DNA of 21,938 bases from a virus. How positions within the stretch are numbered: the first letter of the stretch is position 1; each line of letters opens with the position of its first letter. Below, piece by piece: positions 1,055 to 21,938 of this stretch. The notes under the pieces are model-generated. The model did no database searches. It had not been told where the DNA came from and saw nothing but the letters and a program-made list of their open reading frames with translations. A program made the translations under genes and the position numbers. The stretch is taken from the IMG/VR virus record IMGVR_UViG_3300025736_000238, positions 1 through 21,938 of that record. The stretch is one strand, 5' to 3'.

Positions 1055-1959
1055 CACGCCTCCTTTGGAACGAAATGCACCACGTCAACCTTGTGGCCTT
1101 CTGGGTCGAATAGGTCGCCGCCTTCTGCCCTCAAGCCCCACACCGTCTTCCCTATCTTGTAACATCTGGCTCCAATTTCCATCGTGTCGCGTAGCTCTGC
1201 CTCGTATGCCGTCCGATAGTACACCTCGGGCCGCGCCCCGGTGAGCCACGACTTCGCAGGGATCTTGACGTAGAAGTATTCGCGCTTCGATCCGTGGCCA
1301 GCAAGACGCCGCGTCTTACGGTAGTCGGATACCGTCATACCTTCAGGCCACTCTAGCCCGTCAAGGCTCTTCTCCCACAGATTAGCCGCGCCCATCAGCC
1401 GCCGTGTGTCCAGCCCGTTCGACGCAAGACACTCTCTCAACGTCCGCGATGCTGGGTCGGTTACGTCAACGACTTGGCCTAGCCTGTATACGCGCTCGGC
1501 TATCGTTGAATCGAGCGATGCGAACGATGATAGCTGCGTGAGGATCTGTTCGCCCTCTTCGGCGTCGCGGCGACGATAGAACCATAGGTAATTGTGATCA
1601 ACGCGCCCGATGCCATAGCCTAGAACGTCTTGATTGTCGATTACTTCGAGGATACCACGCTCTGCTCGTTGGTCTACTACCTCGCCATCAGACAGCATAC
1701 GAAGCGGCGCTGATGGCCCTCTAGCCCACTCAGCGATCACAAGCTGCCCAGTCTCAACCATCACATGAACCGGCGCATGTAGCGTAATGCAATTTTCCAC
1801 TACGTCTTTTTCATCACTGCCGCCAAAACCAAGAGGACAAACATGATGCACTTCAAGCTGTTTCCTGCCTTCCTCAGACCTTCCATCAAAACCAGTTATG
1901 GCACACCGCAACCCATCGAGCCTCAACGCCTCTTCACGCACCGCTCTAGACCTAGACAT
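1054..1959 (-). CDS. HNH endonuclease-like protein, 301 aa
   Basis: The N-terminal 70 residues form an HNH-type nuclease module. It has a first cysteine pocket around C19 (RCAITG), the catalytic histidine pair in EVHHVCPLGFGG (H38, H39), an asparagine in VVENCITL (N56) and a second histidine at H65. The remaining 230 residues match nothing I know and include a basic stretch (RKTRRLAGHGSKREYFYVKI) that may bind DNA. A free-standing homing endonuclease is the simplest reading; a packaging or defence nuclease is possible. A 21-codon fragment similar to its N-terminus lies at 3144-3209. The ATG at 1959 overlaps the upstream HNH gene by eight bases; its SD is weak. Confidence 0.8.
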   Translation of the reverse strand: MSRSRAVREEALRLDGLRCAITGFDGRSEEGRKQLEVHHVCPLGFGGSDEKDVVENCITLHAPVHVMVETGQLVIAEWARGPSAPLRMLSDGEVVDQRAERGILEVIDNQDVLGYGIGRVDHNYLWFYRRRDAEEGEQILTQLSSFASLDSTIAERVYRLGQVVDVTDPASRTLRECLASNGLDTRRLMGAANLWEKSLDGLEWPEGMTVSDYRKTRRLAGHGSKREYFYVKIPAKSWLTGARPEVYYRTAYEAELRDTMEIGARCYKIGKTVWGLRAEGGDLFDPEGHKVDVVHFVPKEA

Positions 1960-2470
1960 CTAGCCACCCCCAATTTTTACCTGTAGCTATTAGGCCAATA
2001 GCAGGCTGAGAAACATTGAACATCCTAGCAATTGCGCGTTGACTTAGTTGTCCAAGAAGATTTCTAATCTCATGAACGTTATCTTCAGTCAACTTTGAAT
2101 TGCCATGAGCCTCGCCTCTAGCTGGAACAAGCAATCCAGTATCTATGGCATGTCTCATATTCTCTGAGCGAGTGACATAAGCGATATTATCTACTTTATT
2201 ATTTGTTTTGCACCCGTCGATATGATGAGCATCATAACCATCTGGCCTTGCACCAATAAACGCTGCCGCAACAATACGATGGCACTTTATATGTTTCTGT
2301 TTGCCGTCTCCCCTCAACCCTATACTCAAGTATCCACATCTTTCTAAGCTTGGTTTTAGTATTCTTCCTACGTGCGAATTTGAGGATTCCTTTATGCGCC
2401 GGATTCTCCCGCGATCACTTACTTCATACGATTCTTCATATCCAACAACAGGCAACCATCGTTCATCCAT
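1952..2470 (-). CDS. NUMOD4-HNH homing endonuclease, 172 aa
   Basis: Three parts are visible. Residues 1-45 are a NUMOD4 motif (WLPVVGYEESYEVSDRGRIRR). Residues 60-110 are an HNH nuclease with HHIDG at 82-86, N90/N95 and the family signature TRSENMRHA. Residues 125-170 form a helix-turn-helix (LSQRAIARMFNVSQPAI). This is the usual build of free-standing phage homing endonucleases. The DNA is visibly more A+T-rich than its neighbours, consistent with recent acquisition. I chose the ATG at 2470; a GTG at 2479 would add three residues but lacks an SD. A paralogue with the same three parts lies at 4178-4699. Confidence 0.88.
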   Translation of the reverse strand: MDERWLPVVGYEESYEVSDRGRIRRIKESSNSHVGRILKPSLERCGYLSIGLRGDGKQKHIKCHRIVAAAFIGARPDGYDAHHIDGCKTNNKVDNIAYVTRSENMRHAIDTGLLVPARGEAHGNSKLTEDNVHEIRNLLGQLSQRAIARMFNVSQPAIGLIATGKNWGWLDV

Positions 2471-2609
2471 CGCTATCACTCTTCATCTTAGCAATCAACG
2501 CCTGCCGTATCGCATCGTTCTTATTCGATTGTCGCTTGATGTACTCGATAACGTCTGAGTCTGTTTCTGAGTTTAGTTGTAGCGTGAACCTCGCGTATGT
2601 AGTGCTCAT
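2463..2609 (-). CDS. ribbon-helix-helix-like small protein, 48 aa (copy 1)
   Basis: The frame from ATG 2609 to TGA 2463 encodes 48 residues. One beta strand (RFTLQLN) is followed by two helices (SDVIEYIKRQ and KNDAIRQALIAKM), the layout of CopG/ParR-type ribbon-helix-helix DNA-binding proteins. A GGAG site lies five bases before the ATG. The start overlaps the stop of the Lar-like gene (ATGA) and the end overlaps the HNH gene by eight bases. A close paralogue is encoded at 5180-5314. A dimeric repressor or DNA-binding role is inferred from fold only. Confidence 0.72.
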   Translation of the reverse strand: MSTTYARFTLQLNSETDSDVIEYIKRQSNKNDAIRQALIAKMKSDSDG

Positions 2610-3826: not shown

Positions 3827-4181
3827 CACTCACCCCTAACATAGCGCACACCCAGCAAAGCGTGATCGCACGCGCCATCTCGCCACGCGGACACGTCACC
3901 GATACCTGCAACGGGCGGAACTTCGTGAAGCTCTTCGACTTCCATATCAGACACGCATGTGCGCAGTCGCGGCCATTCTCTACCGTGCTGAGTACCCACG
4001 CGCCGTCCTTGATCGTGCCGCGACCGTATACGGATTCGAAGAGGTCGGTCATCGCATAGCCGATGTCTTCTGGATAGAATCCGCACGTGGTAGAGATCTC
4101 GCCGCTACCCAAGCCAAGCAGATCGAGCACCTTGTCGTTCAGGGTATCGTTCGTCAGCTTCAGGATCTCTTTCTTGTTCAT
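3819..4181 (-). CDS. putative phage ABA-sandwich-type protein, 120 aa
   Basis: The layout is an N-terminal helix (MNKKEILKL), a conserved-looking middle (YPEDIGYAMTDLFESVY), and a C-terminal half with strand-rich HACLIWKSKSF then ARAITLCWVCAML. This resembles small phage proteins with an alpha/beta sandwich domain (Phage_ABA_S), which end in a helix of the form A-RAI-x-A-x-L. The assignment is by pattern memory, so only moderate. An AAGGAGG site precedes the ATG, which overlaps the HNH stop (ATGA). Confidence 0.65.
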   Translation of the reverse strand: MNKKEILKLTNDTLNDKVLDLLGLGSGEISTTCGFYPEDIGYAMTDLFESVYGRGTIKDGAWVLSTVENGRDCAHACLIWKSKSFTKFRPLQVSVTCPRGEMARAITLCWVCAMLGVSDE

Positions 4182-4699
4182 TCCGCCTCCTTAAGCCATC
4201 CCCAACTGCCACCGGTAGCGATTGAGCAAATGGTTGACTGGTCAACATTGAACAGTCTGGCGATTGATCTCTGGCTTTCTTTCCTTAGAAGTCGTCTAAC
4301 TTCACGAACATTATCTTCCGTAAGCTTAGACTTCCATTGCCGTTCTCCATGCGCAGCGACGTTCAATCCATTGCGAAACGCGTGTACTATATTTTCCGAG
4401 CGAGTAACGTACTCAAGATTTAGAACTGCATTGTGTTTCTTGATCCCATCTTTATGATTCACTTCTTTACCATCGGGGCATTGACCAAGAAACGCCGTAG
4501 CCACTAGTCGGTGAATGCTATGACGGCGTTGTATCATATTCTTGGATAGGTTAACTTGCATATAGCCACGAGATGCTGAGCCTTTAGCTATTCTTCCTAT
4601 CCGCGTGCCACATCCTGATTTTACTCTGCGCACACGTCCAAGGTTGCTGACTTCGTATATACCTTCATACTCAACTACATCGCGCCATTCTTCAATCAT
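4178..4699 (-). CDS. NUMOD4-HNH homing endonuclease, 173 aa (paralogue)
   Basis: It has the same three-part build as the protein at 1952-2470. The NUMOD4 motif (WRDVVEYEGIYEVSNLGRVRR) is at residues 5-25. The HNH core has NHKDG at 81-85, N90/N94 and TRSENIVHAF. The C-terminal helix-turn-helix is ESQRSIARLFNVDQSTI. The two proteins share long stretches such as SKLTEDNV in the C-terminal part, so they are duplicates that have diverged. Here the first nuclease histidine position is Asn (NHKDG versus HHIDG), which is common in the family. The ATG overlaps the stop of the integrase fragment (ATGA). Confidence 0.88.
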   Translation of the reverse strand: MIEEWRDVVEYEGIYEVSNLGRVRRVKSGCGTRIGRIAKGSASRGYMQVNLSKNMIQRRHSIHRLVATAFLGQCPDGKEVNHKDGIKKHNAVLNLEYVTRSENIVHAFRNGLNVAAHGERQWKSKLTEDNVREVRRLLRKESQRSIARLFNVDQSTICSIATGGSWGWLKEAE

Positions 4700-8437: not shown

Positions 8438-9027
8438 CACGCGCCTCCACTCAGCCGGTAATCCGCTTGCTTCATCTCAACCATCGTACACGTCTCAACC
8501 CACCGTGATACCGCGCGATCAGTGTAGCGCTCCTTGATCCCTTGCACCGTCAGATTTGTAGACACGGCGATGGGCTTCATGTCGTTGTAGCGTCCATTGA
8601 TAATCTGCGCCAGCTCCTCGTCGATGAACTCAGTTGAGCGCTCCACTCCGAGATCGTCTAACACCATCAGGTCAGCAGACAGACATTGCCTAACCGTGCG
8701 CCTCGTGTTGTTGCGAATGTCGTCACGTAACGCGGCCACTAGATCCAGCATCGGATAGAACGCCACAGTCTTGACCTCTTTCGACACCGCGACCGTCACG
8801 CCGTCCCTATCCTCAAACTGGGGATCAGCGTCTTGGTGGAATATCTGAGCGACGGCAGATAGCAGATGTGTCTTGCCTGTACCTACTGGGCCGATCAACA
8901 GTAGCCCTCCAGTAGAACCGTCAATGAAAGCATGACACGCGGCTCTGGCCTCTTCGCATCCAGGCGGACAGTTGTAGTTCTCAATCGTCGCGTTCTCGAA
9001 TCGCTTGCCAATTACTCCGTAGATCAT
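8437..9027 (-). CDS. DnaC/IstB-type helicase loader ATPase, 196 aa
   Basis: This AAA+ protein has the features of phage helicase loaders. The Walker A motif GPVGTGKTH is at residues 46-54 and Walker B LMVLDDLG at about 120-127. A sensor-1 region STNLT lies at 156-160 and the arginine-finger region TDRAVSRW at 169-176. Such proteins load the replicative DnaB-type helicase at the phage origin. The usual N-terminal helicase-binding domain is short here, about 30 residues, with two cysteines (NCPPGC). It lies two genes after the winged-helix replication protein, the standard order. The ATG overlaps the upstream stop (ATGA). Confidence 0.92.
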   Translation of the reverse strand: MIYGVIGKRFENATIENYNCPPGCEEARAACHAFIDGSTGGLLLIGPVGTGKTHLLSAVAQIFHQDADPQFEDRDGVTVAVSKEVKTVAFYPMLDLVAALRDDIRNNTRRTVRQCLSADLMVLDDLGVERSTEFIDEELAQIINGRYNDMKPIAVSTNLTVQGIKERYTDRAVSRWVETCTMVEMKQADYRLSGGA

Positions 9028-9305
9028 GACGCCTCCTCTATAAGCGAGTAAACAACACGGGCAACCATAGCCGCGTTAACACGCTGCAACACAACGCCTG
9101 CGTGGTCAACAATCTTGAACCATGGAACATAGGCTGCTTGTCCTGTCTCACGATACGGTATGATGCCACTAACAATCACTTGTTGGTGACTGTCAGGATC
9201 CCAAACCGTCTCGCCTTGCTCTATCTTATATTGCCCGTCAATGTCAAGATACAAAGCGGATATCTTTCGATCATCATTCAGGATGTTAGTTCCCAACTCG
9301 CTCAT
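9024..9305 (-). CDS. hypothetical protein between replication genes, 93 aa
   Basis: The start at 9305 has AAGGAGG at the proper distance, and it overlaps the stop of the replication protein gene by one base. The product is predicted mostly beta (LYLDIDGQYKIEQGE; QQVIVSGIIPY; AYVPWFKIVDHAGVVL) with one C-terminal helix (NAAMVARVVYSLIEEA). No family recognised. Its place between the winged-helix protein and the helicase loader suggests a replication accessory role, but this is only position. Confidence 0.68.
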   Translation of the reverse strand: MSELGTNILNDDRKISALYLDIDGQYKIEQGETVWDPDSHQQVIVSGIIPYRETGQAAYVPWFKIVDHAGVVLQRVNAAMVARVVYSLIEEAS

Positions 9306-10087
9306 CACGCCTCCTTGTTGAACGCGTTCACGTATACGCTCGCGTCCCTATCATGTGTTTCGCCTCTGCTTCCAGACTTCAACCCCGCGCTGTACTTGTC
9401 AGGCATAGCACCCGCCGCGTAGTTCGCTATCCATTTGCGGATCGTGTTGATCGTCCACGTCCAGCCGAGATCCTTCAGGCGAACCATGCAGCCGGTTACT
9501 TGCTCAACTGTGTATGCTTCTTCAACGACCATCTGCTTCATGCCTTGTTGGATTGGGAGCCATGATTTACCGCGAGGTCGTGCGCCTTGAAGCTCTGCGT
9601 ATTTCTCAGTGAGCAGATTGAGATCATCCTTTGACATCTTCGGATTGTCCGAAGGAGGTTCTTTACTACCCTCTACACTTAACTCTACACTCTCTATAAG
9701 AGATAACTCCTCGGGTAGTAATGGGTTACTCCTCGGGGCGTTATGGGACGCACCTATAGGCGTAATGGGAATCTCCATTGCTACTCTAGGTGTAATGGGA
9801 AATAGGCGTCTATCTCGCTTGCCGTTGGGACCGTATTCTCTGCGCAGGTATCCCTTCTCTACTAGCTCGGATATGTACTTGCCGATGGTTCGATCTGAGA
9901 ATCCCATCTGTTTGCCTAGCCACTCGTTCGATGCGTAGCAATACCCTGTTTTTCCAATGAGTCCTGTGACTCTTCCGCATACAACCTTTTCACCCATGCA
10001 GATGTCAGTCGCCGCAAGTATTTCAGGGGAGATTAGCACCCATCCTAGCTCGTTGTTTGAATGTTCAATATCGTCCTGTGTTTCCAT
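9305..10087 (-). CDS. winged-helix replication initiation-type protein, 260 aa
   Basis: The ATG at 10087 follows GAGGTG by seven bases; the GTG nine bases upstream would place the start within the SD. Residues 36-83 form a winged helix (CYASNEWLGKQMGFS then RTIGKYISELVEKGYLRR). The C-terminal 60 residues (VEQVTGCMVRL then LGWTWTINTIRKWIANY) resemble the end of phage replication-organiser proteins of the DnaD/O type that hand DNA to the helicase loader. The low-complexity linker (about 110-160) is typical. It is the first gene after the promoter at 10178-10206 and precedes a DnaC-like gene. The exact family is uncertain. Confidence 0.78.
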   Translation of the reverse strand: METQDDIEHSNNELGWVLISPEILAATDICMGEKVVCGRVTGLIGKTGYCYASNEWLGKQMGFSDRTIGKYISELVEKGYLRREYGPNGKRDRRLFPITPRVAMEIPITPIGASHNAPRSNPLLPEELSLIESVELSVEGSKEPPSDNPKMSKDDLNLLTEKYAELQGARPRGKSWLPIQQGMKQMVVEEAYTVEQVTGCMVRLKDLGWTWTINTIRKWIANYAAGAMPDKYSAGLKSGSRGETHDRDASVYVNAFNKEA

Positions 10088-10106
10088 TCCTATCACCTCA
10101 CTAAGT

Positions 10107-10177
10107 AGATGTGGGGACGGCCCGCCGCTTAGTGGCGGACACGCAAAGGCGTCCCGGAAGACCGCCCCGCAACATCT
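10107..10177 (-). promoter_or_regulatory. folded 5' leader of the replication operon
   Basis: The transcript between the -10 box and the SD can fold into a three-way junction. The closing helix is AGATGT (10177-10172) with ACATCT (10112-10107). It continues as GGGG-CGG with CCG-U-CCCC. Two inner hairpins follow, GGACGC/GUGUCC with a 6-base loop and CCGC/GCGG. The fold ends about 12 bases before the SD region. It is not followed by a U tract, so it is not an ordinary terminator. Regulation of translation, mRNA stability or an origin function are options. Confidence 0.55.
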
Positions 10178-10206
10178 ATTATAGCACGTTACGTCGTTAA
10201 ATCAAA
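10178..10206 (-). promoter_or_regulatory. promoter of the replication operon, TTTGAT-N17-TATAAT
   Basis: A perfect -10 box TATAAT lies at 10183-10178. With a 17-base spacer the -35 is TTTGAT (10206-10201); with 16 bases it is TTGATT. The spacer contains the ACGT-rich near-palindrome TTAACGACGTAACG, a possible protein site. It reads leftward into the winged-helix protein and helicase loader. Confidence 0.72.
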
Positions 10207-10261
10207 GGAGTCCCACCGCCCGATAACCTGTGCTTTCGCACTTGGTTCCTTTCGTTTGATT
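10200..10261 (-). other. stem-loop element upstream of the replication promoter
   Basis: On the minus strand AATCAA-(5)-AGGA (10261-10247) pairs with TCCT-TTGATT (10209-10200). Inside lies AACC/GGTT and then the hairpin GTGC-GAAA-GCAC with a GNRA tetraloop (10241-10230). The 3' arm contains the -35 hexamer. A separate hairpin GGGC-TTCG-GCCC lies at 10263-10274, just after the SWIM-protein gene, without a U tract. With the leader at 10107-10177 these fill the 198-base gap 10088-10285, which has no gene. Confidence 0.5.
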
Positions 10262-10285
10262 CGGGCCGAAGCCCACGATGGCTCC

Positions 10286-11311: not shown

Positions 11312-11923
11312 TTAAACGGTTAGAGTTAGCTCCGCGCACACTTCGTCAAGCTCTTCGCAGAACTCAATCAGCGCCGCCTCCAACTTGTCACAGAAGATGC
11401 TATCGCGGTATACGCGCAGGGTGAACAGCGGCAAGCCTGGGACGTACGATACGAAGTCACACCAAAGTCGCCCAGTTACGAGTAGCTGGCCTTGCACCTG
11501 CTGGATGTACGCGGTCGGCAGCTTAGGCTCCAGCGTCAACAGCCGCTCCACCTGCGTCTTCCCAAGCGGGTTCTTCAGCTCAACCAACCCGTCATCTCCT
11601 ACCAGCCCGTCAGGACTTGCACCCCATCGGCCGCAATCGCTGATGCACAATCCAACCTGAACGACTTCAACCTCGTTCTCCATCTCGTACACCTGGCGAC
11701 TCAGAGATTCACGCTCGGATCCCTTCTGCATTGCAATAGAGATGAACGTGTCCTCCTGCGCACCTGTCAATCGTTCAGCAGCCAGCTCGTACATGTAGGC
11801 TGTGCGAGACTTCGACGGCTCGCCTTTGCTGGTGACGATTCGCGAGTATTGAGAAGACGTCGGCTTGCTAAGTCGTTCCGCCCACCATTCCGGCGAGTAT
11901 TGCTCACAGTTGATGATCCTCAT
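11312..11923 (-). CDS. YqaJ/lambda-type exonuclease, 203 aa
   Basis: The nuclease motifs of the YqaJ/lambda exonuclease fold are present in order. They are an N-terminal EQYSPEWWAERLSKPTSSQ block, GSERES at 68-73, GASPDGLVGDDG at 101-112 with the metal-binding Asp, VELKNP at 114-119 with the E-x-K catalytic pair, and the helix YIQQVQGQL at 139-147. These enzymes digest one strand of a double-stranded end to expose 3' single strands. The partner annealing protein (ERF) is encoded directly upstream with a four-base overlap, so the two form a recombination pair. Length is normal for the phage family. Confidence 0.9.
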   Translation of the reverse strand: MRIINCEQYSPEWWAERLSKPTSSQYSRIVTSKGEPSKSRTAYMYELAAERLTGAQEDTFISIAMQKGSERESLSRQVYEMENEVEVVQVGLCISDCGRWGASPDGLVGDDGLVELKNPLGKTQVERLLTLEPKLPTAYIQQVQGQLLVTGRLWCDFVSYVPGLPLFTLRVYRDSIFCDKLEAALIEFCEELDEVCAELTLTV

Positions 11924-12582
11924 TCCGCTACCTCCTGTTTGAGACGTTTGAGATAAGTCGCGTACACATCGTGGACTTGCGAAGCGTCCTCTACGCTGAG
12001 TTCTTTCTTGACCTGGGCACCGTTAGCCGCCCACCAAGGAGCGAACGTCTCAGCGTCTGTGTTGCTGTCTCGCTCACACTTGGCAAGCCAGTTTTCTAAG
12101 ATCTCCCGCGCATCAAGATCATCGTCTTGTCCGCTTGCCTCTGGATCGTCGCCCCACGATATTAGGAACTTACCAGAGCAGGCGTACTTCATCGAAGCAG
12201 TGTCGCCCTTCATCACGGCTTTGTCGCCTGAGTCGATACCAGAGCCAAGCCCCTCAGCCTTCGCAACGAATATGCCATCTGTGAAATACAGGGTAGTCTT
12301 GATAACAGCAAGCGACTTCGTTCCGATGATATGGAACTCCTGAATATCCGCCGCGCTCTCTACGCTGATGCCTTCCTTCACGCATTCCTCGCGTACCTTG
12401 TCAAGTACCTTGCGTGCGGACGTGTAGGTATAGCCGCCGAAGTTGCCGCTCTTCTTTGCCTCATCATCGTTCTGAAGATAGCCAATCGCCTTCATGATGC
12501 GGACCATCTTCGCGTTGAACTCAGGGACTAGATCAAGCAACTTCGTATCCGTCAGCTTCTCTCCGATGGCTGTAAGGTTCAT
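11920..12582 (-). CDS. ERF-type single-strand annealing protein, 220 aa
   Basis: The core matches the ERF family of phage recombinases: YTYTSARKVLDKVREEC at about 51-67, a strand-rich region ending TTLYFTDGIF, and the conserved SGDKAVMKGDTASMKYA at 118-134 followed by GKFLISWGDD. ERF proteins anneal complementary single strands during phage recombination and genome circularisation. The C-terminal 60 residues are an acidic linker plus a helical tail. It precedes the exonuclease gene and overlaps it by four bases. The ATG at 12582 overlaps the upstream stop in the same way. Confidence 0.88.
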   Translation of the reverse strand: MNLTAIGEKLTDTKLLDLVPEFNAKMVRIMKAIGYLQNDDEAKKSGNFGGYTYTSARKVLDKVREECVKEGISVESAADIQEFHIIGTKSLAVIKTTLYFTDGIFVAKAEGLGSGIDSGDKAVMKGDTASMKYACSGKFLISWGDDPEASGQDDDLDAREILENWLAKCERDSNTDAETFAPWWAANGAQVKKELSVEDASQVHDVYATYLKRLKQEVAE

Positions 12583-12812
12583 TCTGCCACCGCCCCAAGA
12601 TCTACAAGCGCGACGATTACAGAATCAATGTCTTCACGAAACTCTCTGAGATAATCCACCGCGCAGTTCAGACCGCTCGGAGTGAAGATCGTGATAGCTG
12701 GCGTCGTGTCTCCGTTATTGATCTTGATGACTCCGTATGTCAATCCCTCGGGTATATACGATTCAAACTTATCGCTTGCCTGTCCGTGGTGATTCGCTGA
12801 TGTGTTGCTCAT
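12579..12812 (-). CDS. hypothetical protein, 77 aa
   Basis: The polar N-terminus (SNTSANHHGQASDKFES) precedes a small alpha/beta domain (YGVIKINNGDTTPAITIFTP; then VDYLREFREDIDSVIVALVDLG). The C-terminal helix overlaps the ERF gene by four bases. No family recognised. The place directly before ERF suggests co-expression with recombination, nothing more. AGGAGG lies about six bases before the ATG. Confidence 0.65.
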   Translation of the reverse strand: MSNTSANHHGQASDKFESYIPEGLTYGVIKINNGDTTPAITIFTPSGLNCAVDYLREFREDIDSVIVALVDLGAVAE

Positions 12813-12824
12813 CGTCCTGCCTCC

Positions 12825-13055
12825 TTACCACAAATCTGTCTGCTGCTCACTCGCAACCTTGTCTTGCTCGCACTCGTCCGCGAACCGCTTGTCCTCGTCT
12901 ACATCTATCATGGCAGATTCCCGAGCCTCAGCCTCGGTCAACGGGCGTAAGCATTGACTTGCGTAATCCTCTGCTGACTTGCCCTGGACGCGGTTGTATA
13001 GCACCTTTGTCCCGTCTGCGAGTACGTGCAAGACTCTATGGTGTGTGTATTTCAT
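12825..13055 (-). CDS. hypothetical protein, 76 aa
   Basis: The ATG at 13055 follows TAGGAGGCGTG; a GTG just before it is too close to the SD. The protein begins with strand-like KYTHHRVLHVLADGTKVLY and ends in a very acidic helix with a Cys-containing DECEQDKVASEQQ. No family recognised. It sits between the Xre-like regulator and the gene ahead of ERF, without overlaps. Confidence 0.65.
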   Translation of the reverse strand: MKYTHHRVLHVLADGTKVLYNRVQGKSAEDYASQCLRPLTEAEARESAMIDVDEDKRFADECEQDKVASEQQTDLW

Positions 13056-16554: not shown

Positions 16555-19500
16555 CTACGCCGCTTCCCTAAATGCTAGATAGCGCGTTACTCCCCCAACA
16601 TCAAATGTCATTAGCCCCTCATGCCCTACTTTCAGAGTGACAGAATCAGTGGCAACGATTGCAGAGCATTTGGCTATGGTAGTCCCACCGTTTACCGTGA
16701 ACCAGATTTCACTCCCGCTTTTTAGATAGATGTCACTACCAGCATTGATTGTAATATCTGTCTGTCCTCTCAAATATGGGCTCGCCACCAAGCTCAAATA
16801 TGATGTAGCGCTCGCTCCGTACCAGATATCAGTATCCATGTTTATGTAATGTGTGGTTGCTCCGGCCCCTCCACGCAGAGTACTGCAGTTGTAGATGGCC
16901 TGATTATCCATATCTAAGTATGAGTTTGTTGGGAAGAATGAAGCATAGTAAGGGGTGATAGCGTCTTCGGATATCCTAGCAACGTTCAATGTCCCCGACG
17001 TAATGTCGTCAGCAACTAGCGTGCCTCTGATTGAAGCCCCAGTACACGACATGACACCTAACGCGGTGACTGCGAACGCCCCAGAGTTCACGTTTATCGT
17101 CCCTCCAGTGATAGTTAGATCTGTGCATGTAACTGCGCCAGCTGCGGATACCTTGAACTTAGCACCAAGCCCTATCCCGTCTGTCCCAACATGCACACCT
17201 GCTAGTCCGTCACCATAGGCCGTCTTCGATCCCGTATACAGATGCGTAGCTATCGTGAATCCCCCGACCGTCCCACCTGACGCAGCGATATTCTCGCAAT
17301 TCATCGAGCCATCCGTCTTCACCCAGAAGTCAGCGTCCGCAGGCGTCGCACTGCCAGCGTAGAACGCATAATCTGTGATGGAAATAATCCCGGCTGTCGT
17401 TCCGCCTGAGCCAACCGTCAGGCGGTCCGTGCCGATGGTAACGCCGCCGATCTCTCCAGAGGTCGCTTCAAGAGCACCGGCTGCCGACACTTGGAATGGG
17501 GCCGCCGCGTAAGATGTACCGCCGATGCGAAGCTCTCCCGCTGTGCGGTTCAGCCAGATTGTGTTCCCTGTATTCACTAGCTCGATTGATCCAGTTGTCA
17601 TTTCAAGGTCGCCAGTGATTACAGCGTCAGAGCATGTCAACACGCCAGCTCTGCTTACTTTGAACGTATCACCAAGGCCTATTCCATCTACTCCAATATG
17701 AACTCCATTGCCTACTATGGTGTCATAGTCTACCTTGGCATCTGTATACAGATCGTCGCCAGCGATCGTGAACCCGCCGATGGTCCCACCGTCTGCGTCG
17801 AGCTGATCGCAATGCAGAAGCCCGGAAGTATTCACCCAGAAGTCAGACGTCAACGATGGAGACGAGCTACCAGCAAAGAACACAATGTTATTCGCGTCAC
17901 CGACAACTATGCCAGCGTTGCCAACTGTAAGACTAGCTGTGTCAATATCAACTCCACCAATCTTCCCAGACGTTGCTTCAAGCGCCCCGGCTGCCGACAC
18001 CTGGAAAGGTGCAGAGCTGTAAGTCGTTCCGCCAATGCGTAGCTCTCCTGCCGTCTTGTTAAGCCATATCGTCTCAGTACCATTCACTATCTCTATCGAG
18101 CCAGTCGTCATCTCAATATCGCCGCGCACAGTTACATCGTTAAACTCTGCGTCGCCGTCGCTTTCTATCTGCCAGCCAGCCGTACCAGCTGCGTAGTTAT
18201 CCGACTTCACCGATCCGCCAGCCGTGAGGTTCATCTCGACGGTGAGGTTGCCGGCGGTGAGCTTCGTGACTGCAAGAGAGTTAATCTTGGCATCCGTCAC
18301 TGCTAGGTTGTTAATCTTCGCCTCAGTTACTGCGAGTGCTCCAATCTTAGCCTCTGTCACAGCTAGAGCATTGATCTTAGCAGTCGTCACAGCGAGCAAA
18401 CCAATCTTAGCGTCAGTCACTGCGAGGTTCTTAATCTTGCCCTCAGTTACCGCAAGGCTTCCGATCTTGCCTTCAGTTACCGCGAGAGAATTGATCTTGC
18501 CCTCTTCAACTGCTAGGTTCGCAATGTTTGCCGTATCAACAGCAAGATTCCCTATCTTTGCATTAGTCACCGATCCGCTCGCTAGCTTCCCTTCTGTAAT
18601 CGCAAGGTTGGTGATCTCGCTTGTGATGACAGATAAGCCAGATCGTCCGAGAGTCACGAAGTTAAGTGTCCCCGCGTCTAGGTCAGATGCATTTAGCGAG
18701 CCTCGTATCGTCGCATTCTGAAACTCAGCCGAGCCGTCTTGATCTATCTCCCAGCCAGTGGTCCCAGCTGCGTAGTTCTGTGACTTGATCGACCCGCCAG
18801 CCGTCAGATTCATCTGAACAGCAAGATCCCCTGCCGTCAGGTGAGAGATGGACACATTCCCGATCCATTCGCCGTCTGAGTGGATTATGAGCGGCGTCAC
18901 AGCGTCAGGGTCGAACGTCAGATAGTGCGTAGCGTCACCTACGAGCTTGAACTTACCGTCGATGTCAAAGTATGCACGCCAGTTTGTACCGTCAGAGAAT
19001 CCTAGATACGACGTTGCGGCATACAACCCAGCCGCCGAAGGTGCAGTCGGAAGAGCTCCAACAACCCCGCCAGGAATGTCGATCATCTGTAGTGCAGAAA
19101 GGTCGTTCACCTGGACAGCATCACGGAAATCAAACTCGATAGCCTTGTTAGCGACCTGAATCTGAACGTCACCCGGAGCTCCATTCACATCGCTCTTGGT
19201 GATGGATACAATCCGCGCTTGCACTGATATGTCGAGGTCGTCATACGTCACCTCAACCAATGCACCAAGGACAAATTCATCGATGGACTCGCCTGAGAGT
19301 GAATAGAGATCAGCGCCAGCTACTGAGTATTTCACACGAGGTACTGAGTATTCGGCTATCAAACTCACGGCTGCATCATAGAGATTCTGAGCGACTGAAT
19401 ACCTTTGGTCGATCCATATCCGCTCAATGAGGCCATACGTGGCCACGTTGTTTGACACGTATGCAAAGCCGCTAGGTTCGATGGCTGTGATGTCAAGCTG

Positions 19501-20163
19501 ATCTGCGCCCGCGAGATTCCCATACGGATAGAGCCGCGTCACGATCTGAGTGTAGTCCTCATCTTCATCCACGCTAAGAAGATTGCGGCCACGGTCCAGA
19601 TAGGAAGAGACTGTAGCCGGTGGCGTGATCAGGTTCACGGTCCATGGATAGCTCGACGTGTCAAACGTCCACTGATACGAGCAACCGAACCGCGCCGGTA
19701 TGTCTGCCATCGCTTCGAGTAACGATGTGCCAGGCTCCCACGTATACAGGAATTGCCTGTCAAAGTCAGAGGATCCTAGTGCCCAGTTCACTGTACCTTG
19801 AAGGGCGAGCACGTCGCCTATGCTCGTGATAGACCCTGGCCCCGAGTTCAGCGTAACCTTGACCTCATCATTCATCAGCGTAGCGAAGACATGCTCACAC
19901 TCGAATCTGTAATAGGTCTTCTCACTCGTGCCGCGCTTCGCTTTCTTGATGATACGAAACAGGTCAACGCGTTCGTCGCCGTTGTAAATCTCGGCATATC
20001 TCAAGCCTGTGCATTCTGATATGTGGGGATCGTCGTAAGGCAGTGAGAACCACGCACGATAAAGTTCGTTGATGCGTTGTTCATATCCCACGTCGAACGC
20101 CTGATTCAAATCGGCTACAGGCTCGCGTGCGGCGTTATAGATGACAACTGACGCGTTCGCCAT
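16555..20163 (-). CDS. tail-associated protein (Tal-like) with repeats, 1202 aa
   Basis: Residues 1 to about 375 resemble the N-terminal domain of siphovirus tail-associated proteins (prophage tail endopeptidase/gp27-like hub): INELYRAWFSLPYDDP, RYAEIYNGDERVDLFRI, LLEAMADIPARFGCSYQW. A beta-rich connector follows. Residues about 515-640 are ten-residue repeats of the type LAVTEAKIxx, and 675-1020 are two copies of a 172-residue domain. The rest is fibre-like. The protein forms the tail-tip hub and an adhesive fibre; a lytic domain is not evident. Its ATG overlaps the Dit stop by one base (TAATG), matching the Dit-Tal order. Confidence 0.85.
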   Translation of the reverse strand: MANASVVIYNAAREPVADLNQAFDVGYEQRINELYRAWFSLPYDDPHISECTGLRYAEIYNGDERVDLFRIIKKAKRGTSEKTYYRFECEHVFATLMNDEVKVTLNSGPGSITSIGDVLALQGTVNWALGSSDFDRQFLYTWEPGTSLLEAMADIPARFGCSYQWTFDTSSYPWTVNLITPPATVSSYLDRGRNLLSVDEDEDYTQIVTRLYPYGNLAGADQLDITAIEPSGFAYVSNNVATYGLIERIWIDQRYSVAQNLYDAAVSLIAEYSVPRVKYSVAGADLYSLSGESIDEFVLGALVEVTYDDLDISVQARIVSITKSDVNGAPGDVQIQVANKAIEFDFRDAVQVNDLSALQMIDIPGGVVGALPTAPSAAGLYAATSYLGFSDGTNWRAYFDIDGKFKLVGDATHYLTFDPDAVTPLIIHSDGEWIGNVSISHLTAGDLAVQMNLTAGGSIKSQNYAAGTTGWEIDQDGSAEFQNATIRGSLNASDLDAGTLNFVTLGRSGLSVITSEITNLAITEGKLASGSVTNAKIGNLAVDTANIANLAVEEGKINSLAVTEGKIGSLAVTEGKIKNLAVTDAKIGLLAVTTAKINALAVTEAKIGALAVTEAKINNLAVTDAKINSLAVTKLTAGNLTVEMNLTAGGSVKSDNYAAGTAGWQIESDGDAEFNDVTVRGDIEMTTGSIEIVNGTETIWLNKTAGELRIGGTTYSSAPFQVSAAGALEATSGKIGGVDIDTASLTVGNAGIVVGDANNIVFFAGSSSPSLTSDFWVNTSGLLHCDQLDADGGTIGGFTIAGDDLYTDAKVDYDTIVGNGVHIGVDGIGLGDTFKVSRAGVLTCSDAVITGDLEMTTGSIELVNTGNTIWLNRTAGELRIGGTSYAAAPFQVSAAGALEATSGEIGGVTIGTDRLTVGSGGTTAGIISITDYAFYAGSATPADADFWVKTDGSMNCENIAASGGTVGGFTIATHLYTGSKTAYGDGLAGVHVGTDGIGLGAKFKVSAAGAVTCTDLTITGGTINVNSGAFAVTALGVMSCTGASIRGTLVADDITSGTLNVARISEDAITPYYASFFPTNSYLDMDNQAIYNCSTLRGGAGATTHYINMDTDIWYGASATSYLSLVASPYLRGQTDITINAGSDIYLKSGSEIWFTVNGGTTIAKCSAIVATDSVTLKVGHEGLMTFDVGGVTRYLAFREAA
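17115..18130 (-). repeat. tandem duplication of a 172-residue fibre domain inside Tal
   Basis: Two copies lie head to tail, at about 18130-17615 and 17614-17115. Matching blocks are EMTTGSIE, TAGELRIGGT, APFQVSAAGALEATSG, IGGV, FAGSSSP versus YAGSATP, GGTIGGFTIA versus GGTVGGFTIA, and HIGVDGIGLG versus HVGTDGIGLG. The copies differ in insertions and linkers, so the duplication is not recent. Confidence 0.85.
18240..18620 (-). repeat. 30-base repeats encoding a 10-residue repeat in Tal
   Basis: At least eleven consecutive units follow the pattern LAVT-E/D-x-KI-x-x, varying only at fixed places. They encode a short beta or coiled fibre segment between two copies of an LTAG-x-L...AAGT block. 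The frame is kept throughout, so this is a protein repeat and not a CRISPR array or intergenic repeat. Confidence 0.9.
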
Positions 20164-21938
20164 TATAAGTACCTCGGCTCGTGGTCCACTTCTAGGTCAA
20201 GGTCACGGGTTGCATCGTCGTCTTTCCATCGCAGCTCGTTTGTCCCTGAGTAGAGTTTCGGGAAAGTCCCCGTCATGTTTGCTCTGGCATTCACGCCATT
20301 CAGCTTGACCGTCATATTGTCCGTGTCGATTTCCAGCACGTCGCCAGCCGTGAGCGTTCCAGTGTAGCCAAGTGATTGAGTGATGTAAGCTAGTGCGACG
20401 GCCTCCATAGAAGAGGAAGCAGAGATAGTCACTGATCCTGATTTGACCGTAGTCCCTGAGCAGATAAGAGACATAACAGCTTCAATAGAAACCGCACCGC
20501 TGGCAATCAGATTCCCCGTAGTTGTCATTGACGCAATGATAGCGATCGCCGCTATCCCCTGGCGTATGCGCGTCGGATCAGCAGTGAGAGACGCGATAGA
20601 CGAAATAGAACACGCGCCCGGACGTATACGCGAAGGGACTGCGGACATAGAGGCCACGGCATCAATTGACGCAACAGCAGCCGCAATCAGATTTCCTGCA
20701 GGCGTTACTGAAGAAACTGCATCGATGGTTGTTGCACCTTGCCTTATTCGCAGAGGGACGCCAGTCATTGACGGTGTGACCGTCACGCTGCACTGTCCGC
20801 TCTTAATAGCATTCGAGTCAATGGTCACTGATACGACTGAGTTGATTGGACACACGCCGGATGCAAGCAGATTAGCCGCCACTGTCATGGCAGCCGAGGA
20901 GCTTATCGAAACATTACCATCCTTTATGCTCATTGCCACGGCTATCAGACTTGCTACAGCGTCTATCGAACAAGCGCCGAATTTCATGCGTGTTGCCAAT
21001 GCCGTCAATGATGCGATGGCGTCGATGGACACAGCGGCTGATGCAGTCAAGTTTCCTGTGGCAGTCATTGAAGAGACTGCGTTAATCGAGCAGCTTTCGC
21101 AGTACATATTCGCGGCCTTGGCAATCATGGATGCGATAGCCTCAATGGATACCGCGCCTGAAGCAATGAGATTGGCAGCGCTTATCATGGAAGAGATTGA
21201 GTTGATAGACACCACGCCCGAGGCAGTGAGATTCCCGACACTTACCATTGAAGGAATCGCAGAGATAGACACTACGCCGCTTGCTGTGATGGCTCCATCG
21301 GCCGTCATGCTTGGAACAGTTGAGATAGTGACAGCGCCGAACCTTTTCCGCGTAGCCAACGGTATCAACGATGCCACCGCAGAGATCGTTGACGCTCCCT
21401 GTTGTACGCGACCTCCTTTGATTGTCATGCTTGGGGCAGATGAGATGGACGCAGCGCCGGATGCAATCAGATTCCCTTCAGGCGACACAGAAGACACGGC
21501 TGTTATCGTCACAGCGCCGGATAATGTTTCTCCAGTTGTCCAACTTTGAGCCGCCCCGTATGCAGTGCTATCTGAGTTCGTAGCGTAAGCGCGATAGTAG
21601 TACGCTGTATTCTCAGTCAGCCCTGTCTTTGCCTGATCGAACGCGCCCTCGGCCCCTGCGCCCAACGTAGAAGACCCATCAGCGCCTGCGATATTGACAG
21701 GGTCAGATCCAGCCTTCCAGCAAAAGCCGTGCTGAGTGATTGACCCATCGCCGTCGTCTGTGATGTTACCGTTAAGGGTTGCGCCGCCTGGGACGATTAG
21801 GGTTGCGGCTTGAGTGGTGACAGTTGGAGCGACGATTATGATTTCTTCCCACGTAAGAGCGCTTGGAAGAGTAGATGGGCTTGAGAAGCTGGTCGTTATC
21901 GTAGATGTTCCGCCTGAGTGTTGGTAGATCTTGTCTGC
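20163..21938 (-). CDS. Dit-like distal tail protein with repeats (5' end outside window)
   Basis: The frame is open to the right edge, so at least 592 residues of the C-terminal part are present. The final 75 residues match the C-terminal domain of siphovirus distal tail (Dit) proteins: GTLTAGDVLEID, MTVKLNGVNA, FPKLYSGTNELRW, LEVDHEPRYL. Residues about 38-137 of the visible part are fibronectin-like (LNGNITDDGDGS, HGFCWKAG, TAYYYRAYATNS). Between them are about 19 copies of a 20-residue repeat, about 375 residues. Dit forms the ring at the tail end. Fn3-like insertions in 'evolved Dits' bind host surfaces; this repeat insert is the unusual part. Confidence 0.78.
   Translation of the reverse strand, partial: ADKIYQHSGGTSTITTSFSSPSTLPSALTWEEIIIVAPTVTTQAATLIVPGGATLNGNITDDGDGSITQHGFCWKAGSDPVNIAGADGSSTLGAGAEGAFDQAKTGLTENTAYYYRAYATNSDSTAYGAAQSWTTGETLSGAVTITAVSSVSPEGNLIASGAASISSAPSMTIKGGRVQQGASTISAVASLIPLATRKRFGAVTISTVPSMTADGAITASGVVSISAIPSMVSVGNLTASGVVSINSISSMISAANLIASGAVSIEAIASMIAKAANMYCESCSINAVSSMTATGNLTASAAVSIDAIASLTALATRMKFGACSIDAVASLIAVAMSIKDGNVSISSSAAMTVAANLLASGVCPINSVVSVTIDSNAIKSGQCSVTVTPSMTGVPLRIRQGATTIDAVSSVTPAGNLIAAAVASIDAVASMSAVPSRIRPGACSISSIASLTADPTRIRQGIAAIAIIASMTTTGNLIASGAVSIEAVMSLICSGTTVKSGSVTISASSSMEAVALAYITQSLGYTGTLTAGDVLEIDTDNMTVKLNGVNARANMTGTFPKLYSGTNELRWKDDDATRDLDLEVDHEPRYL
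20390..21518 (-). repeat. about 19 copies of a 60-base repeat encoding a 20-residue repeat
   Basis: The unit is approximately G-x-VSI-x-AI-x-SM-x-A-x-GNLIAS, with small residues at fixed places. Examples are GAVSIEAIASM, GVVSISAIPSM and AAVSIDAIASL. The period is 20 residues with one 19-residue unit. The codons differ between copies, so the array is old or under diversifying exchange. Confidence 0.9.

Follow-up and report, generated by a model that had tools for sequence, protein, structure and literature searches.

In siphoviruses, Dit is regarded as a single chain that forms the hub of the tail tip, and the gene examined here raises the question of how a Dit-like C-terminal domain comes to be joined to a long array of short repeats. 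The gene lies at one end of the window, that is, the whole stretch of DNA analysed, which is an entire IMG/VR record (IMGVR_UViG_3300025736_000238), a linear fragment of 21,938 bases. A preliminary description made from these letters had proposed a whole Dit carrying a fibronectin-like domain and about 19 copies of a 20-residue repeat. We refer to the product as the arm protein, and its parts and its neighbour are as follows.

20163 to 21938, minus strand: open reading frame of the arm protein, 591 aa visible, with a head remnant, an Fn3-like module, 19 repeats and a DitC half
21831 to 21938, minus strand: N-terminal head remnant, the last blade of a propeller-like repeat of 41-43 residues (KIYQHSGGTSTITTSF...)
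21528 to 21830, minus strand: Fn3-like module of 101 aa, 79-88% identical in the arms of L009 and L010
20388 to 21527, minus strand: array of 19 repeats of 20 residues, consensus about IASGAVSIxAVASMTAxGNL
20169 to 20435, minus strand: DitC, the C-terminal half of Dit, with the distal beta-sandwich strands (PF22768; 72% identity to the C-terminus of the one-piece Dit of L007)
16555 to 20163, minus strand: Tal / tail endopeptidase of 1202 aa (PF06605 6e-27, PF09327 2e-12)

The arm reading frame has no start codon inside the window; its 5' end runs past the contig end and the N-terminus is missing, the closest full-length homologue being a protein of 569 aa (L009:11258-12967). Tal lies directly downstream of the arm and is 89% identical over 400 aa to the Tal of L009. 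Based on their coordinates, the arm stop and the Tal ATG overlap by one base in the window, L009 and L010, and this TAATG overlap is predicted to couple the translation of arm and Tal. Within the Tal gene, tandem DNA repeats of 30, 60 and 120 bases (18283-18504) encode repeats of about 10 residues of the LAVTEGKI type. Other parts of the window (1057-2479, 8440-10096, 11315-12582) encode HNH endonucleases, a DnaC-like helicase loader, a replication initiator, a RecE-like exonuclease and an Erf-like annealing protein.

Repeat array, Fn3-like module and head

The regular array of about 19 copies is real and consists of exactly 19 gap-free units without indels, but it runs from 20388 to 21527 and not, as first given, from 20390 to 21518. 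At a lag of 20 residues the identity reaches 0.36, whereas the highest value at any lag in 500 shuffled sequences was 0.185, which rules out periodicity by chance. Several unit positions are fixed, with Ile at position 8 and Ser at position 13 (each in 18 of the 19 units) and Gly at position 4 (16 of 19). Tandem Repeats Finder detected no DNA tandem repeat at the array, and unit-to-unit identity by codon position is 0.50/0.56/0.30, with third positions near random; the pattern is therefore held at the protein level. We read the array, from this codon pattern, as old and kept by selection on the protein.

The preliminary description could not place the repeat and had suggested a profile search against protein families. 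This search returned no family match for the array in Pfam, PHROGs or the PDB, so that neither a Pfam family nor a solved structure accounts for it. On the other hand, an HMM of the window repeat matches gp51 of the Methylophilales phage Venkman at 5e-31 (shuffled decoys reach 0.01 at best), and gp26 of mycobacteriophage Aminay contains a similar unit of 20 residues. This Aminay protein has no match to the window repeat HMM and is matched by the L003 array only, to which it is linked by tblastn. Given its presence in Venkman gp51 and the similar unit of Aminay gp26, we conclude that the repeat is a recurring, unnamed tail-protein unit and not private to the window. Venkman gp51 (L016:4965-5681, MT375522.1) is annotated as 'putative E3 ubiquitin-protein ligase HERC6', although the protein carries 20-residue repeats and its gene belongs to a tail-fibre locus.

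A period of 20 residues, or a multiple of it, beats every shuffle in 9 of the 11 arms tested (narrowly in L009b and L011), and it is also present in arms of quite different sequence (L029, L031). It was not found in the L032 arm, where the period is 45 residues instead, and in the short L025 arm (448 aa) it falls within the shuffle range. The combination of a fixed period with a divergent sequence suggests a structural coil, and a period common to unrelated arm sequences points to a shared stalk architecture. An AlphaFold2 model of the repeats with DitC shows three strands per 20 residues, in register, but with a pLDDT of 55 it is too weak to use, and AlphaFold2 is known to favour solenoids too readily when repeats are perfect (PMC11795689). 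Foldseek with the repeat model gave nothing significant (E no better than 0.39). Overall, we lean slightly towards a solenoid or another regular beta stalk. The arms could instead act as flexible tethers of low complexity, rich in Ser and Ala and perhaps glycosylated by the product of a neighbouring glycosyltransferase-like gene (L009, L022, L025), in line with that neighbour and with the low AlphaFold2 confidence for the repeats. We consider this rather unlikely, given that the 20-residue register is strict, that hydrophobic positions stay fixed while third codon positions are random, and that the period persists in arms of unrelated sequence such as L029.

The domain first called fibronectin-like (21528-21830) is a real, conserved module, although it is Fn3 by motif resemblance only, with no Pfam match at E 0.05 and no PDB profile match at 0.1. 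Its high identity among the arms of the window, L009 and L010, in viruses whose DitN proteins are only 36% identical, suggests a recent exchange or homogenisation of the module. The propeller-like repeat of the head remnant also builds the N-terminal 215 aa of the L009 and L025 arms, and the homologues L009:11258-12967 and L025:41055-42401 begin with MAGNLWS at this head. The heads, including the propeller-like repeat, have no Pfam or PDB match. The repeat is also found at the end of contig L022: this end (12425-12937) and the window (21831-21938) both break inside propeller-like repeat DNA, with an exact match of 36 bases at the window's first bases, probably where the assembly of neighbouring or sister genomes broke off. 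In L022 the propeller DNA stands after DitN, Gp80 and a glycosyltransferase-like gene, and this contig may be the missing neighbour of the window or a sister genome.

The two halves of Dit in related contigs

The C-terminal Dit domain was correctly recognised at the outset, with matches to PF22768 at 8.7e-9, above the cut-off, and to phrog_33 (Dit) at 1e-13. The idea of a whole Dit with an insert does not hold, as homologues with an intact 5' end begin with head domains and a gene of its own encodes the ring half. The ring domain PF05709 is absent from the window arm, which lacks its own 5' end, and from all full-length homologues of the arm; it is present in separate DitN genes of 176-204 aa. 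DitN comprises the ring domain and the first strands of the C-terminal beta-sandwich and ends in a stop, followed by a Gp80-like gene (PF23140). Both halves are carried by 12 contigs (L009, L010, L025 (L087), L088, L011, L029, L031, L032, L091, L094, L095 and L096), while L022 and L026 contain DitN and Gp80 but break off further along. The ring domain occurs once per record and DitC once or twice, with two arms in L009, L010, L025 and L088. In L009, DitN lies at 3836-4405 and the two DitC at 10028-10273 and 12719-12964. The L010 DitN scores below the Pfam cut-off and was found only by PHROGs and the HMMs built here, and the L031 DitC, missed by PF22768, was found with a model made here. In L025 the halves lie at opposite ends of a 45.5-kb contig in which no end repeat was found, a layout that would fit a permuted circular genome. 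A sequencing frameshift or a pseudogene is ruled out as the origin of the split by the whole genes that separate the halves in independent contigs and by purifying selection on both. For the window, we infer its own DitN and the N-terminus of the arm from these relatives. Judged by gene content, the Dit of this virus group is made in two genes; for want of a ring domain in its chain, the window arm is best filed as an evolved-Dit variant and not as Dit proper.

Two relatives have kept a one-piece Dit, with halves 72-76% identical to a split DitN and to the window DitC. In the L007 protein (292 aa), the first part is 76% identical to the L009 DitN and the last 74 residues are 72% identical to the window DitC. 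In the Dit of GBSV1, the L009 DitN matches the N-terminal part and the L009 DitC the adjoining C-terminal part. Besides, a profile of all halves matches the SPP1 Dit (2x8k) across the break, and 2x8k is the best match (E 2e-14) of a single-chain AlphaFold2 model of the L007 Dit (pLDDT 74). On this model the break falls in loop 196-215 of the C-terminal domain, which connects strands 181-195 and 216-230. DitN ends after the former strand and DitC starts at the latter, which places the break in a predicted hairpin loop inside the beta-sandwich.

Where the contigs show it, the gene order is TMP, DitN, Gp80-like gene (PF23140), other genes, arm(s) and Tal. TMP lies outside the window, and it is found upstream of DitN in L009, L010, L011 and probably L088. 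The Gp80-like gene is present in 9 of 9 split records tested by PF23140 and, where examined with an HMM built here, in five further split loci; it is absent from the one-piece record L007. It directly follows DitN in every split contig (L009:4421-5253, L010:4969-5367, L011:5452-5874 and others); L009 has two copies. It may have interrupted the Dit gene, or its product may belong to the arm anchor. Glycosyltransferase-like genes lie beside Ser/Thr-rich arm genes (L009:10645-11268, L022:11742-12425, L025:10986-11798, L087:2506-3129 and L088:4095-4865). The one in L009 matches phrog_2456 at 4e-6, and the products could modify the arms.

The sandwich strands of DitN beyond the ring domain are under purifying selection (dN/dS about 0.1-0.33), and so is DitC. 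In trees resting on a short alignment of 74 columns, the two DitC of each two-arm genome group together in 4 of 4 genomes (support 0.81-0.996, moderate in three). The two DitC of L009 are only 50% identical, less than the 58% shared by L009_1 and L025_1. The one-piece L007 is nested among the split relatives with moderate support, and CBP1/Bha171 stand beside the other split group, a placement that carries a long-branch warning; both positions bear on whether the split arose only once. Between the DitN of L022 and L025, the sandwich strands are far closer (dN 0.06) than the ring parts (dN 0.17), unlike in L009, hinting at recombination between the ring and sandwich parts.

Scans of GTDB genomes with the arm and with DitN found no relative, and thus no host is assigned. 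In one split-Dit group, L011:7594-9198 and L031:12697-14010 encode secreted proteins with PKD-like repeats resembling those of methanogenic archaea, which hints at archaeal hosts for that group. Among cultured phages, tblastn with arms or DitN revealed no split Dit, and the DitN matches that were opened are one-piece Dits. In the open-access literature, which our search covered, we found no report of a split or two-gene Dit.

Proposed assembly of arms on the Dit ring

We propose, with a probability of about 0.72, that the product of this gene is an arm fixed to the tail tip through half a Dit, with DitC completing the sandwich of DitN in trans. DitN would provide the ring domain stacked on the tail tube together with the first strands of the peripheral beta-sandwich, and DitC, the C-terminus of one or two arm proteins, would supply the remaining strands. 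Docking would consist of an arm's DitC filling in the sandwich of one DitN subunit. The arms would then project from the ring on their DitC bases, with the 20-residue repeats serving as stalk or spacer and the N-terminal head (propeller-like in the window) placed outermost to contact the host. On this reading, what is a loop insertion in an evolved Dit has become independent of the chain and is encoded by genes of its own, which can be duplicated and exchanged. Finding two separate halves fused in a relative is a classical indication that they interact, and the L007 fusion speaks for the split halves belonging together. The clustering of the two DitC within a genome is expected if both fit one DitN, while the low identity of the two DitC in L009 counts against the proposal. 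More tentatively, and at less than even odds, one DitN ring could be completed in trans by DitC arms of two kinds, possibly with three copies of each in keeping with the Tal trimer; the virus would then have two receptor-binding specificities on a single ring and could swap or duplicate arms by recombination.

Two other readings of the halves have to be weighed against completion in trans. DitN might be a complete minimal Dit, with the DitC-like domain of the arm repurposed as an anchor on Tal, on the Gp80-like protein or on another tail-tip part. Ring-only Dits do exist (lambda gpM, PMC7291167), so DitC could bind elsewhere, and a Gp80-like gene that follows DitN in all split contigs and is missing from L007 could encode an adaptor. 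We regard this as improbable, as DitN keeps about 50 conserved residues of sandwich strands beyond the ring that a ring-only Dit would not need, and in L007 the two segments equivalent to the DitN strands and to DitC make one domain. Far less probable still is a one-piece evolved Dit in the window, with its ring domain beyond the contig end and the head, the Fn3-like module and the repeats as the insert. The missing 5' end of the arm and the one-piece Dit in the same lineage (L007) would agree with such a protein; the close homologues in L009 and L025, however, start with MAGNLWS at the propeller-like head, and L022, ending in the same propeller DNA, has a separate DitN gene (204 aa) four genes upstream.

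Comparison with known systems

Should completion in trans hold, this Dit, divided within a folded domain and with a duplicated second half joined to differing arms, would let receptor-binding heads be plugged into the tail tip. It would also account for phrog_31951 and show that completion of a domain in trans occurs in nature. Annotation will miss adsorption proteins of this kind because each half scores low alone. Splitting the ring protein and attaching repeat arms to it apparently gives a modular means of mounting various receptor-binding heads on a tail tip.

The family phrog_31951 (173 aa, function unknown) matches all DitC arms scanned against it, over the repeats and DitC, and is never annotated as Dit; it probably represents stand-alone DitC proteins. 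Venkman gp51 and Aminay gp26 (a minor tail protein) share arrays with a 20-residue period but differ in having no DitC. The SPP1 Dit (gp19.1, PDB 2x8k), the best profile and fold match of the one-piece relative, has the same ring domain and C-terminal beta-sandwich, but it is a single chain of 253 residues without arms.

Evolved Dits carry modules in loops of the C-terminal domain (PMC7291167), and those of Gram-positive siphophages (such as J-1, skunaviruses and OE33PA; PMC7291167, PMC8540738) resemble the present system in their extra modules on the peripheral C-terminal domain, their TMP-Dit-Tal neighbourhood and a likely role in host contact. They are, however, single chains with carbohydrate-binding modules in the loops, whereas here the chain is broken at the equivalent loop, Dit takes two genes, the C-terminal half is duplicated in some genomes and the insert consists of an N-terminal head and a repeat array. 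A precedent for completion in trans within a tail-tip device comes from the lactococcal phage Tuc2009, in which BppA and BppU, different proteins from those described here, jointly complete a different, titin-like domain (PMC7291167).
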